A model generated the notes under the pieces. The model saw only the letters and a list, made by a program, of their open reading frames with translations. It searched no databases and was not told where the DNA came from. DNA of 35,648 bases. Origin: Phycisphaerales bacterium. GTDB lineage: Bacteria > Planctomycetota > Phycisphaerae > Phycisphaerales > UBA1924. This document shows, piece by piece, positions 14,433 through 17,405 of the stretch (position 1 is the first letter of the stretch; the number at the start of each line of letters is the position of its first letter). The stretch lies in NCBI GenBank assembly GCA_947476675.1, contig CANJRL010000015.1, positions 1-35,648 on the forward strand, written 5' to 3'. The translations under genes were made by a program, and so were the position numbers.

Positions 14433-15236
14433 ATGAACCTGCTGCACGGGAAAGTCGGCCTGATCTTCGGCATCGCGAACGATCGCTCGTACGCCTGGCA
14501 CATCGCCGAGGCGCTGCTCGGGCACGGGGCGCGGTGCGCGTACACCAGCCTCCCGGGGGAGAAGAACGAGCGGCGGACGCGCAAGGCGATCGAGACCCTG
14601 CCCAACGGCGGGATGCAGGGAGGGCACGAGGTGTGGATGGCGCCCTGCGACGCGGGAAAGGATGAGGACCTGGATGCCGTGTTCGACGCGTACACGAAGA
14701 AGCACGAGCGGCTGGACTTCGTGATCCATTCGATCGCGTTCGCGGATCGGGAGTGGCTGGCGCCGGGCAAGTTCACGGACACGCCCCGGGCGGCGTACCT
14801 GAGCGCGATCGACATCAGCGCGTACACGCTGGCGGCGATGGCGAAGCGGGCCCGGGAGCCGATGAAGGCCTCGGGGGGCGGGAGCATCCTGGCGATGTCG
14901 TACTACGGCGCCGAGAAGGTGGTGCCGGGCTACAATGTGATGGGGGTGGCGAAGGCGGCGCTGGAGTGCACGGCGCGGTACCTGGCGTGGGAACTGGGCG
15001 AGCACAGGATCCGGGTGAACACGATCTCGGGCGGGCCCTTGCGCACGCTGGCGAGCAGCGCGGTTGGGGGGGTGGACAAGATGATGGAGGCGACGCCGCT
15101 CAAGGCGCCGCTGAGGAGGAACGTGGAGGGGAGCGACGTGGGGGGCGCCGCGGCGTGGCTGGTGAGCGACCTGGCGGCGGGGGTGACGGCGGAGAACATC
15201 TACGTGGATTGCGGCGTGAGCGCGGTGGGGGTGTGA
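14433..15236 (+). CDS. fabI: Enoyl-[acyl-carrier-protein] reductase [NADH] FabI
   Basis: 267 residues, the usual FabI length. It reduces trans-2-enoyl-ACP in the last step of each fatty-acid elongation cycle. The N-terminal GIANDRSYAWHIA replaces the ordinary SDR glycine motif as in FabI. The catalytic pair Y167-x6-K174 is in PGYNVMGVAKAALE, with the FabI-specific SYYGAEKVVP just before it. ISGGPLRTLASSA corresponds to the substrate-loop region that also lines the triclosan pocket. The start is leaderless in appearance. Confidence 0.95.
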   Translation: MNLLHGKVGLIFGIANDRSYAWHIAEALLGHGARCAYTSLPGEKNERRTRKAIETLPNGGMQGGHEVWMAPCDAGKDEDLDAVFDAYTKKHERLDFVIHSIAFADREWLAPGKFTDTPRAAYLSAIDISAYTLAAMAKRAREPMKASGGGSILAMSYYGAEKVVPGYNVMGVAKAALECTARYLAWELGEHRIRVNTISGGPLRTLASSAVGGVDKMMEATPLKAPLRRNVEGSDVGGAAAWLVSDLAAGVTAENIYVDCGVSAVGV

Positions 15237-15239
15237 GCT

Positions 15240-15833
15240 ATGTCGATTCGCGACCGAATCAACGAAGCGCAGTTTTTGTTTCTCAACGGGCACAAGAACG
15301 GCGCACTACTGCCACTATTAGTGGCCGTGGCAGCAACAGCGAGACTCCGGCACCCACAACCCGTGAGCGATGGCAAGGCGTTTAGGACATTCCTCGACGA
15401 AGAAACGCCCGTGGTGACACGAGGAGGCGCACAGACAATCAATGTAGTTCTAAATGATAAGCAACAATCAATATCCGATATCCTCTACAAGTATCTAAGA
15501 AATCAGCTGGTGCATGAAGCGAAAAGCTCGAAGGAAGTTGTCTTCATGCCAACGCCGGCTGGCTCATTGTTCACTATCAAGAACACCGGGGCGCGGATCG
15601 AGTTGTCTGAAAGCTTTCTTGATGGCCTAGCGAATGCGGTCGTCTACGCACCTGAGAATCGGGTGGCATTCCCTGATATAGCAAGGATGCCTGAAGAGGT
15701 GCTTCGATGGCAGATGTTTGACGAACGATGGCAGTCTGAAGGCGTCATGGAGTATTGGAAGCAACGGATCGAGCGCGTCATAAAACTGAATGCGGCAGCT
15801 CAAGCCAGCGGTTCCGACGTCGCGGCCGATTGA
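15240..15833 (+). CDS. HEPN-like protein of foreign composition, unknown function
   Basis: 197 residues. The stretch ILYKYLRNQLVHEA carries R87-N-x3-H92, the Rx4-6H motif of HEPN RNase domains, in a mostly helical protein that opens INEAQFLFLNGHKNGALLPLLVAVAATARLR. That opening and the LYKYLRNxLVHE core match a group of small bacterial proteins I recall as uncharacterised. By hand count the gene is about 53% GC, against roughly 70% around it, with AT-ending codons (GTAGTTCTAAATGATAAG), which indicates recent acquisition. It begins three bases after the fabI stop and ends four bases from the convergent nuclease-like gene. No antitoxin partner is visible on the same strand. Confidence 0.7.
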   Translation: MSIRDRINEAQFLFLNGHKNGALLPLLVAVAATARLRHPQPVSDGKAFRTFLDEETPVVTRGGAQTINVVLNDKQQSISDILYKYLRNQLVHEAKSSKEVVFMPTPAGSLFTIKNTGARIELSESFLDGLANAVVYAPENRVAFPDIARMPEEVLRWQMFDERWQSEGVMEYWKQRIERVIKLNAAAQASGSDVAAD

Positions 15834-15837
15834 AGTA

Positions 15838-16386
15838 TCATCGTGGTTCAATAAGAAGCCACCCCTGTGGCATCTCGGCCTGCCTGAGCAAGCCGCGGGG
15901 CGCCGCGATGTAGAAGAGGTCGGCCTGGCGCCAGCGTCGGAGTGACCAGAGTTTCACGTTGGCGCGCGAGCGGCGGTCGAGCGAGGCGGCGTCGCGGCGG
16001 GCTCGGCGCAGGCCTCGGAGGCGGGAGCCGTCGAGGCGCAGCGGCGCGAGTTCCGGGAACAGCCAGCCGTCGGAGTCGATCAGGTGCGGCTCGGACGCGC
16101 GGAGGAGCGGTTCGGCCCCTGCGCAGCGGGCGAGGAGGGTGTCGCGCTTGCGGCGGAGGGCGTCGCGGTCGGCGGCGTCGCGGAAGAAGTCGGCGCGGCT
16201 CTGCTTGCACTCGACGATGGCGACGAAGGGCGTCCCGTCCGTGCCGGGCGCGCGGCCTACACCTATGACGTCGGCGCGGAAGCGGGGGATGCGGGTGCGG
16301 GCCTCGGTGGCGATGTGCCAGCATCCGATCCAGCGGAGGAACTCGGCGGCGAAGATCTTGAGGCGCTGGTGGGCGAGGGATTCCAT
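15838..16386 (-). CDS. PD-(D/E)xK nuclease-like protein
   Basis: 182 residues. FRADVIGVG...FVAIVECKQSRADFF gives D39, E59 and K61, the D-x(n)-ExK arrangement of restriction-endonuclease-fold enzymes; an earlier acidic residue, E29 (ATEART), fits the first helix. The rest is rich in Arg and aromatic residues (LWSLRRWRQADLFYIAAP). It may be related to MmcB-type repair nucleases, with low certainty. The start at ATG 16386 follows the phosphotransferase stop by eight bases; the longer open frame upstream overlaps that gene. It converges on the HEPN-like gene. Confidence 0.72.
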   Translation of the reverse strand: MESLAHQRLKIFAAEFLRWIGCWHIATEARTRIPRFRADVIGVGRAPGTDGTPFVAIVECKQSRADFFRDAADRDALRRKRDTLLARCAGAEPLLRASEPHLIDSDGWLFPELAPLRLDGSRLRGLRRARRDAASLDRRSRANVKLWSLRRWRQADLFYIAAPRGLLRQAEMPQGWLLIEPR

Positions 16387-16394
16387 CGGCCGGC

Positions 16395-17405
16395 CTACTT
16401 GGCGACGACGGGGAGCAGGCGTTCGAGGGTTTCGAGCGCGGTGTGCAAGTGGGCCTTGTTGCCCTCGCGGTCGAGGAAGGCGGGGATGGAGGCGGCGGAG
16501 AGGACGCGGCGGATGTTCATGAGGGCGCCGTAGTCCCCGTCGGTCTCGAGGCCCAGGGCGCGGCGGGCCTTGGCGAGGAGTGACACCGGCTTGACGCCCT
16601 CGAGGGCGTGGAGGCGTCCCCAGTGCATGCGCTCGAGGTAGACGGCGTCCTCGGCCCAGTGTCCGGGCTGGACCTCGGCGAAGTCGAGGAGGATGCACCC
16701 GGGGGGGCCAAACGGGGAGTCCGGGGGCCGGCGCATGCAGTTGCCGCCGTGGAGGTCGCCGTGGCGCCAGCAGGCGATGGGTCTGGCGCGCCAGGCCGCG
16801 AGGAGCCGGGGGAGCGCCTTCTGCGTGTGCTTGATCGCGTCGTTCCACTTGGAGTGCTCGGGGATGTGGGAGTCCTTGACCGCGGCGCGGGCGCGGTCGA
16901 GGAGGGCGGCCCAGTCGGGGTCGGCGCGTTCGGCGGCGTCGGGCGGGAGCGGCACGAGGTCGCGGGCGTGCTTCTGGAAGCCGGCGCAGGCCTCGGCCAT
17001 GTCGGTGAAGCACTCCTTGTGGAGCGTGGAGGAGAGCGGCTCGCCCGGGAGGCGCTCCATGATGAGCCAGGCGAGGTCGTAGCCGCCGAGTTCGGCGCCG
17101 TGGGCGAGGACGCGGGGCGTGGGCGCATCGATCTCGGAGAGTGCGACGGCGAAGCGGTACTCGACGGGTCCGACCGGGAGTTTGATGACCGCGGGGAGTG
17201 CCGCGGGCAGACCGACCGGCGCCCAGGAGGGCGCGAGGCCGGCGGTCGAGAAGGAGCAGTAGCCGGTGGCGGCGCCTCCGCGCTGCCAATCGGCGCGGAA
17301 CCAGGAGATGTCGGAGAGCCGCCCGCCGCACGCCTCGACGAGGGTCGGCGCGAGCATCGAGGCGAGAGCGCCCGGGGATTGCGAGGGCTGAGCGTTGCCC
17401 GGCAT
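16395..17405 (-). CDS. APH-family phosphotransferase (protein-kinase-like fold)
   Basis: 336 residues. PAVIKLPV carries the ATP-site lysine, AWLIMERLPGEPL is the hinge region, CWRHGDLHGGNCM is the catalytic loop and ILLDFAEVQPGHWAEDAVYLE the metal-binding DF(A/E) segment. The family includes aminoglycoside, choline and homoserine kinases; the substrate here is unknown. TACCGT sits seven bases before the ATG with no Shine-Dalgarno, again leaderless in form. It is probably co-transcribed with the nuclease-like gene (eight-base gap). Confidence 0.88.
   Translation of the reverse strand: MPGNAQPSQSPGALASMLAPTLVEACGGRLSDISWFRADWQRGGAATGYCSFSTAGLAPSWAPVGLPAALPAVIKLPVGPVEYRFAVALSEIDAPTPRVLAHGAELGGYDLAWLIMERLPGEPLSSTLHKECFTDMAEACAGFQKHARDLVPLPPDAAERADPDWAALLDRARAAVKDSHIPEHSKWNDAIKHTQKALPRLLAAWRARPIACWRHGDLHGGNCMRRPPDSPFGPPGCILLDFAEVQPGHWAEDAVYLERMHWGRLHALEGVKPVSLLAKARRALGLETDGDYGALMNIRRVLSAASIPAFLDREGNKAHLHTALETLERLLPVVAK

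Follow-up and report, generated by a model that had tools for sequence, protein, structure and literature searches.

According to the available part of PMC3710099, HEPN ribonucleases are metal-independent and need both a histidine and an arginine; at least 16 HEPN clades are described there as linked to restriction systems, and it is proposed that the RNase is held inactive and is released when restriction is defeated. The same part gives as marks of the superfamily an Rx4-6H motif that ends helix 3, an insert between helices 2 and 3 and, in many but not all HEPN families, a helix-2 acidic residue that typically belongs to an Ex3[KR] pattern. The position after the arginine is expected to be polar as well, mostly N, D or H.

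Several described systems resemble the family that we report here. Tha, a HEPN protein of a S. aureus prophage, degrades RNA once phage tail proteins have activated it. Like some members of our family it is carried by a prophage, and it is a single HEPN RNase, with the motif R265NSIMH270 where the window protein has RNQLVH; compared by description, as given in the accessible part of PMC11087260, Tha has 301 aa, a C-terminal HEPN domain and a regulatory gene in phage 80alpha, whereas the HEPN-like core here is N-terminal. AbiV, an antiphage HEPN RNase of L. lactis (PDB 9bj5–9bj7), is the best structure match of both models made for the family, at about 10–12 % identity; it is part of a two-component system according to the PDB title of 9bj6, and it typically lacks the histidine of Rx4-6H (PMC3710099, available part), which our family keeps. 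The anticodon nuclease PrrC is a HEPN-type RNase within the PrrI hsd locus (same source and extent), and a relative in our set (L047) similarly lies directly upstream of hsdS; PrrC, however, has an N-terminal ABC-type NTPase domain and sits in a restriction locus, whereas members of our family are bare proteins of 160–280 aa and the copy studied here has no adjoining restriction genes. Finally, the DUF4145 and MNT-associated HEPN families (PF13643 and PF05168) are alike in having an Rx4H-type motif and restriction–modification contexts, as far as the available part of PMC3710099 describes them, but show no significant profile–profile match to ours.

The window analysed here, meaning the whole stretch of 35,648 nucleotides from a Phycisphaerales bacterium (contig CANJRL010000015.1), carries a HEPN-like gene that belongs to a sparse family without a named model, a new family of a known kind.

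Position and composition of the HEPN-like gene

The genes needed to follow the argument are given below.

14433..15236, + strand: fabI-type enoyl-ACP reductase gene, likely on a common transcript with the HEPN-like gene
15240..15833, + strand: HEPN-like gene (197 aa, low GC), a probable RNase, as judged from invariant motif and model
15838..16386, - strand: PD-(D/E)xK nuclease-like gene (by motif), resident, convergent and not a partner, as judged from GC and the loci of relatives
16395..17405, - strand: gene for an APH-type phosphotransferase, immediately 5' of the nuclease-like gene

The GC content of the HEPN-like gene is 0.524, compared with a mean of 0.716 (sd 0.026, minimum 0.635) in 674 overlapping gene-sized windows outside the gene, and the dip is barely wider than the gene itself. 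Its GC3 is 0.571, against 0.885–0.951 in six neighbouring genes. The original prediction, made from the letters alone, had estimated a gene of ∼53 % GC in a ∼70 % GC region and had raised the possibility that it was acquired; the measured values (52.4 % against 71.6 ± 2.6 %) bear out the estimate, and acquisition is supported by the GC and GC3 outlier together with a sparse distribution in relatives. A search for repeats that might mark an insertion around the gene returned only GC-rich partial repeats, none of them convincingly flanking.

The stop codon of fabI lies 3 bases before the start codon of the HEPN-like gene on the same strand, a neighbour that was overlooked when the gene was said to have no co-directional partner. 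A promoter scan of positions 15000–16100 found no promoter. The HEPN-like gene is probably read from the fabI transcript. Its position 3 bases behind fabI would imply transcription at a housekeeping level, so that the product may be either harmless until triggered or inactive. A toxin–antitoxin pair was considered and rejected, as no antitoxin candidate adjoins the HEPN-like gene and fabI is a housekeeping neighbour. Within the window, no partner gene or regulator for the HEPN-like gene was visible.

Among 29 other fabI loci of relatives, none had fabI and the nuclease-like gene side by side, and none contained either the nuclease-like or the HEPN-like gene; the ADH gene upstream of fabI was kept in six of them. 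In one relative (G031) the order ADH, fabI, APH is conserved, with neither of the two genes between fabI and APH; this stretch holds instead a different frame that appears by eye to specify a secreted PEP-CTERM-like protein. As the fabI loci of relatives are without these genes and that of G031 is filled differently, we regard the region behind fabI as variable.

Distribution and alignment of the family

With the window protein as query, the HEPN-like gene was found in four of 61 genomes of relatives (own genome counted), two of the three other matches being cut-short frames, and in two of 392 genomes sampled from the whole phylum (again with its own). Profiles extended this to 12 of 298 genomes within the class (own included; 10-row profile) and to four of 398 genomes of the phylum of a Pseudoalteromonas member (source genome counted; 22-row profile). 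Relatives were present in 11 records of Vibrio phages, in Sulfuricurvum, Burkholderiales, Pseudoalteromonas and planctomycete genomes, in IMG/VR and on one Cupriavidus plasmid. The window protein alone found nothing in a genome contig collection or among plasmids, nor did one of the relatives (an L048 protein) find anything among viral contigs.

The window protein gave no meaningful match in Pfam, NCBIfam, PADLOC or PHROGs, and the same was true of four relatives in Pfam, PHROGs and PADLOC; a search of PDB sequences with the family profile was empty. Matches of the window protein to Cas8b in PADLOC (E 0.013) and dapE in NCBIfam (E 0.11), and a match to alpha-1-antitrypsin chains (E 0.7), were taken as chance. 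Word-based literature searches did not find the family in print, and the families unnamed in Pfam within the supplementary alignment of PMC3710099, a source available in part, could include it.

We aligned 22 members, leaving out the truncated relatives from G014 and G055, in which the motif region is gone, the duplicates or near-duplicates L025, L026 and L030, and L068–L070, which were found later. The elements that this alignment and the structural model locate in the window protein are as follows.

15294..15350, + strand: predicted helix 2, codons 19–37, with K or R at residue 35 in 22/22 members and D at residue 31 in 6/22 (A here); model and alignment
15498..15515, + strand: predicted HEPN active-site motif RNQLVH, codons 87–92, at the end of helix 78–91; alignment and model

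Full invariance is limited to six positions (A32, F51, Y83, R87, L90 and H92), and the window copy is an intact, full-length frame that has all of them. By itself the Rx4H pattern is thin evidence, since shuffles of the window protein yielded it in 19 % of cases (R[NDH]x3H in 2 %); it becomes meaningful because its arginine and histidine are invariant in all 22 aligned relatives. The RNQLVH motif of the original prediction stands, at R87 and H92, and by eye Rx4H is also kept in the three later-found members. The residue after the arginine is N88 in the window protein and is C in 18 of the 22 rows and N in the other four, so that N is not typical of the family. The aspartate at residue 31 gives a Dx3[KR] pattern in one subfamily; the subfamily of the window protein lacks the helix-2 acidic residue, a point against the HEPN reading.

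Three members from the same class (L053, L054 and L055, from G552, G619 and G461) form a compact subfamily of 160–166 aa with D31-x3-K/R35 and RNPLVH or RCPLVH. Another member (L050, 600–1493, G634) has a DUF386 (YhcH) domain ahead of the family domain within a single open frame, which adjoins a class II tRNA-synthetase gene. The truncated relatives, from the same taxonomic family (L059, 441–737, G014) and the same order (L060, 9495–9767, G055), are cut short before Rx4H, and copies therefore decay in related genomes.

Predicted structure

The AlphaFold model of the window protein, made with seven relatives, has a pLDDT of 84.9 and a pTM of 0.84. It places helices at residues 3–15, 19–37, 78–91 and 125–135, an insert at 38–77 and strands at 99–123, after the motif. 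In the model R87–H92 ends the third helix and the insert between helices 2 and 3 is present, as expected of HEPN topology. The model of a 279-aa Pseudoalteromonas member is less well defined (pLDDT 79.3, pTM 0.59; residues 120–138 and 141–145 poor).

For both models AbiV was the top PDB match by VIA, with Z 5.2 (4.2 Å, 115 aligned) for the window protein and Z 6.3 (5.2 Å, 113 aligned) for the longer member, values in a range (below 8–13) that, by the tool's own warning, can reflect a common helical arrangement. Second for both was 3c18 (Z 5.1 and 5.5), which we take to contain a HEPN-type domain, and 4nqf, titled 'HEPN domain protein', reached Z 4.7 with the window model. Foldseek returned no match at E ≤ 0.001 for either model in the PDB (E > 0.4) and none in a viral library, where the best was the unnamed A0A0H4TI24 (E 2.2e-3, TM 0.49). 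Profile comparison by hhalign with 20 sequences of PF05168 and five short ones of PF13643 was not significant (probability below 1 %); for one pair the E-values were 0.066 and 0.27, against 0.55 for the unrelated alignment of the nuclease-like protein. Three things thus carry our assignment of the protein to the HEPN type, which agrees with the original prediction: the invariance of the motif, where it lies in the model, and a structural ranking that is consistent but weak.

In the longer form, that of the phage-borne subfamily (L029, 10001–10840), residues 181–279 align with MarR-type winged-helix chains (11 rows, Z 3.8–5.4).

Genomic contexts of the relatives

A mobile or defence context was seen for nine of the 22 aligned members, a raw count without a random-gene baseline; read as such, it supports a defence or mobile setting for these relatives more strongly than the original prediction could. 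Prophages provide several of the examples. In tailless Vibrio prophages the family gene has the integrase on one side and the structural genes on the other; nine records are identical over 4,044 bases, of which F7 matches 63 %, a further 20 records match on the structural side only, and the F4 prophage has two other genes in the slot. In a tailed, HP1/P2-like Vibrio prophage the family gene is the last; the tail end is common to 17 other records and no match crosses the family gene, the slot being occupied in two inspected relatives by HNH-endonuclease and DUF6236 genes or by a 987-base gene. Members from Vibrio cyclitrophicus prophages of two viral realms share 63–66 % identity with the Pseudoalteromonas member. 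For such small prophages, an accessory-gene hot spot enriched for defence is described in the accessible part of PMC11630473, which, judging by strain names, is probably the source of the Vibrio records. An IMG/VR P2-like prophage carries a family gene of 38 % GC between replication and portal genes of ∼60 % GC, and Aeromonas phage P05B has another gene in its place.

Outside phages, an island on the Cupriavidus plasmid has the family gene beside Wadjet genes, a putAbiC protein and integrases, together with a gene annotated as HEPN domain-containing (no Pfam match). In G564 the gene is part of a type I restriction–modification and Lamassu locus with the order hsdR, hsdM, a 662-aa frame that is presumably AlbA_2-like, the family gene, hsdS, LmuA, MC3 and LmuB. 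There is a 4-base overlap between the start of the family gene and the stop before it, and a second one, between its own stop and hsdS, if hsdS starts at a GTG rather than at a later ATG. A 476-aa protein of G490 (L049, 8214–9644) has the family domain as its C-terminal half; its gene lies in a type IIG restriction operon, directly behind a type IIG/DrmMI-like enzyme, with an HKD–Snf2 helicase further on. In Sulfuricurvum the family gene is upstream of a DUF1016/YhcG PD-(D/E)xK gene (PADLOC PDC-S02). L051 adjoins an IS200-type transposase and a HIRAN protein, and L033 is at the end of a viral contig.

The other 13 members are L028, L029, L048, L050, L052, L058, L056, the window member and the unscanned L022, L053, L054, L055 and L057. 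The scanned neighbours of L028, L029, L048, L050 and L052 included no defence genes and were housekeeping or signalling genes; L056 has one neighbour without a match. In L058 (8746–10796; G004, same taxonomic family as the window genome) the relative faces a convergent DUF1828/DUF1829 gene, itself preceded by a DUF6978 gene, and all of these have lower GC than their surroundings, possibly forming a small island.

The N-terminal half of the G490 protein has no Pfam match; inspected by eye, it resembles a HEPN domain, with the sequence RNPYMH.

Proposed function

The reading that we favour, with a probability of about 0.6, is that the window gene, gained by horizontal transfer and present here as a lone copy, encodes a HEPN ribonuclease that is probably catalytic and serves in defence against phages or genetic elements. 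It would be a recently acquired single copy of an HEPN-type family that has no name. Most likely the protein forms a dimer by way of its helical core, and metal-independent RNA cleavage would be the work of R87 and H92 at the dimer cleft. Its relatives may constitute the RNA-cutting arm of defence, as prophage and plasmid cargo and, beside restriction systems, as a second line for when restriction fails or is blocked, as PrrC. By analogy with Tha and with the restriction-linked HEPN RNases, the family would be a conditional RNase. As no regulator is visible in the window, the protein would be either its own sensor or an orphan: behind fabI and without a partner it may act alone, staying silent, as Tha does, until triggered by a phage product, or alternatively it may be on its way out.

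A more specific proposal, which we offer tentatively as possible, is that the family is a one-gene, phage-triggered HEPN module passed between unrelated carriers: prophages of one Vibrio species that are tailless (Varidnaviria) or tailed (Duplodnaviria), defence islands on plasmids, and restriction operons, the last in a PrrC-like place. The MarR-like domain would then be a sensor or brake in the phage-borne subfamily, the short form in the window acting without it.

Against the favoured reading of an active defence ribonuclease, the gene may instead be a passenger, inert or in decay, that arrived without a regulator or partner and persists behind fabI by chance only. The single copy with no partner gene in the window would fit this, as would the relatives in G014 and G055 that have lost the motif; the intact, full-length window frame with all six invariant positions argues against it, and we consider it rather unlikely. 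It is also unlikely that the product is HEPN-like but non-catalytic, with a role in RNA binding or regulation, or that it is a helical protein from outside the HEPN superfamily with a chance Rx4H. Such an explanation would accommodate the weak structure scores and the lack of a significant profile match, and the MarR-type winged-helix match in the phage subfamily could mean regulation; it does not sit easily, however, with an arginine and histidine that are among only six invariant positions in 22 diverse members, or with AbiV ranking first for both independent models.

The convergent nuclease-like gene

Four bases separate the stop of the HEPN-like gene from that of the nuclease-like gene, as had been noted together with a D39-E59-x-K61 motif in the latter. 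Both observations were confirmed, and the alignment adds a further acidic residue.

16204..16305, - strand: stretch of the nuclease-like protein from E28 to K61, with E28, D39 and E59-x-K61; alignment

All 13 aligned sequences have E28, D39, E59 and K61, in the order acidic residue, D, (D/E)xK. The window protein has no Pfam match, and one of its 13 relatives matches UPF0102 at E 0.071; against PHROGs it matches PHROG 631 (1.1e-4) and PHROG 5429, 'DNA repair protein' (2.8e-3). The composition of the gene is ordinary (GC 0.719, GC3 0.885), and it has matches in 16 of the 61 genomes, own counted (15/60 others). Sixteen loci fetched for these 15 genomes, some at contig ends, contained no HEPN-like gene, fabI or APH in the sequence covered, and the three other HEPN-bearing genomes of the 61-genome set had no nuclease match.

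A two-gene system of the HEPN-like and the convergent PD-(D/E)xK gene, one of the two options originally raised, could point to stops 4 bases apart and to two intact predicted catalytic motifs, but is highly improbable given opposite strands, the difference in GC (0.524 vs 0.719) and the failure of the pair to recur from either side. The other option, a lone acquired gene, was the better one. The nuclease-like gene appears to be a chance neighbour, an unrelated resident that happens to end beside the HEPN-like gene.

Significance

For the window itself the outcome is sobering, in that its striking convergent pair is a coincidence of insertion. If our reading of the HEPN-like gene holds, it would add one more unmodelled HEPN family to the RNA-cutting defence effectors. 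The family has no PADLOC match and escapes current defence-finding libraries, so that its carriers would be undercounted. Moreover, its presence in Vibrio cyclitrophicus prophages of two realms offers a chance to ask whether one gene protects from either kind of phage.
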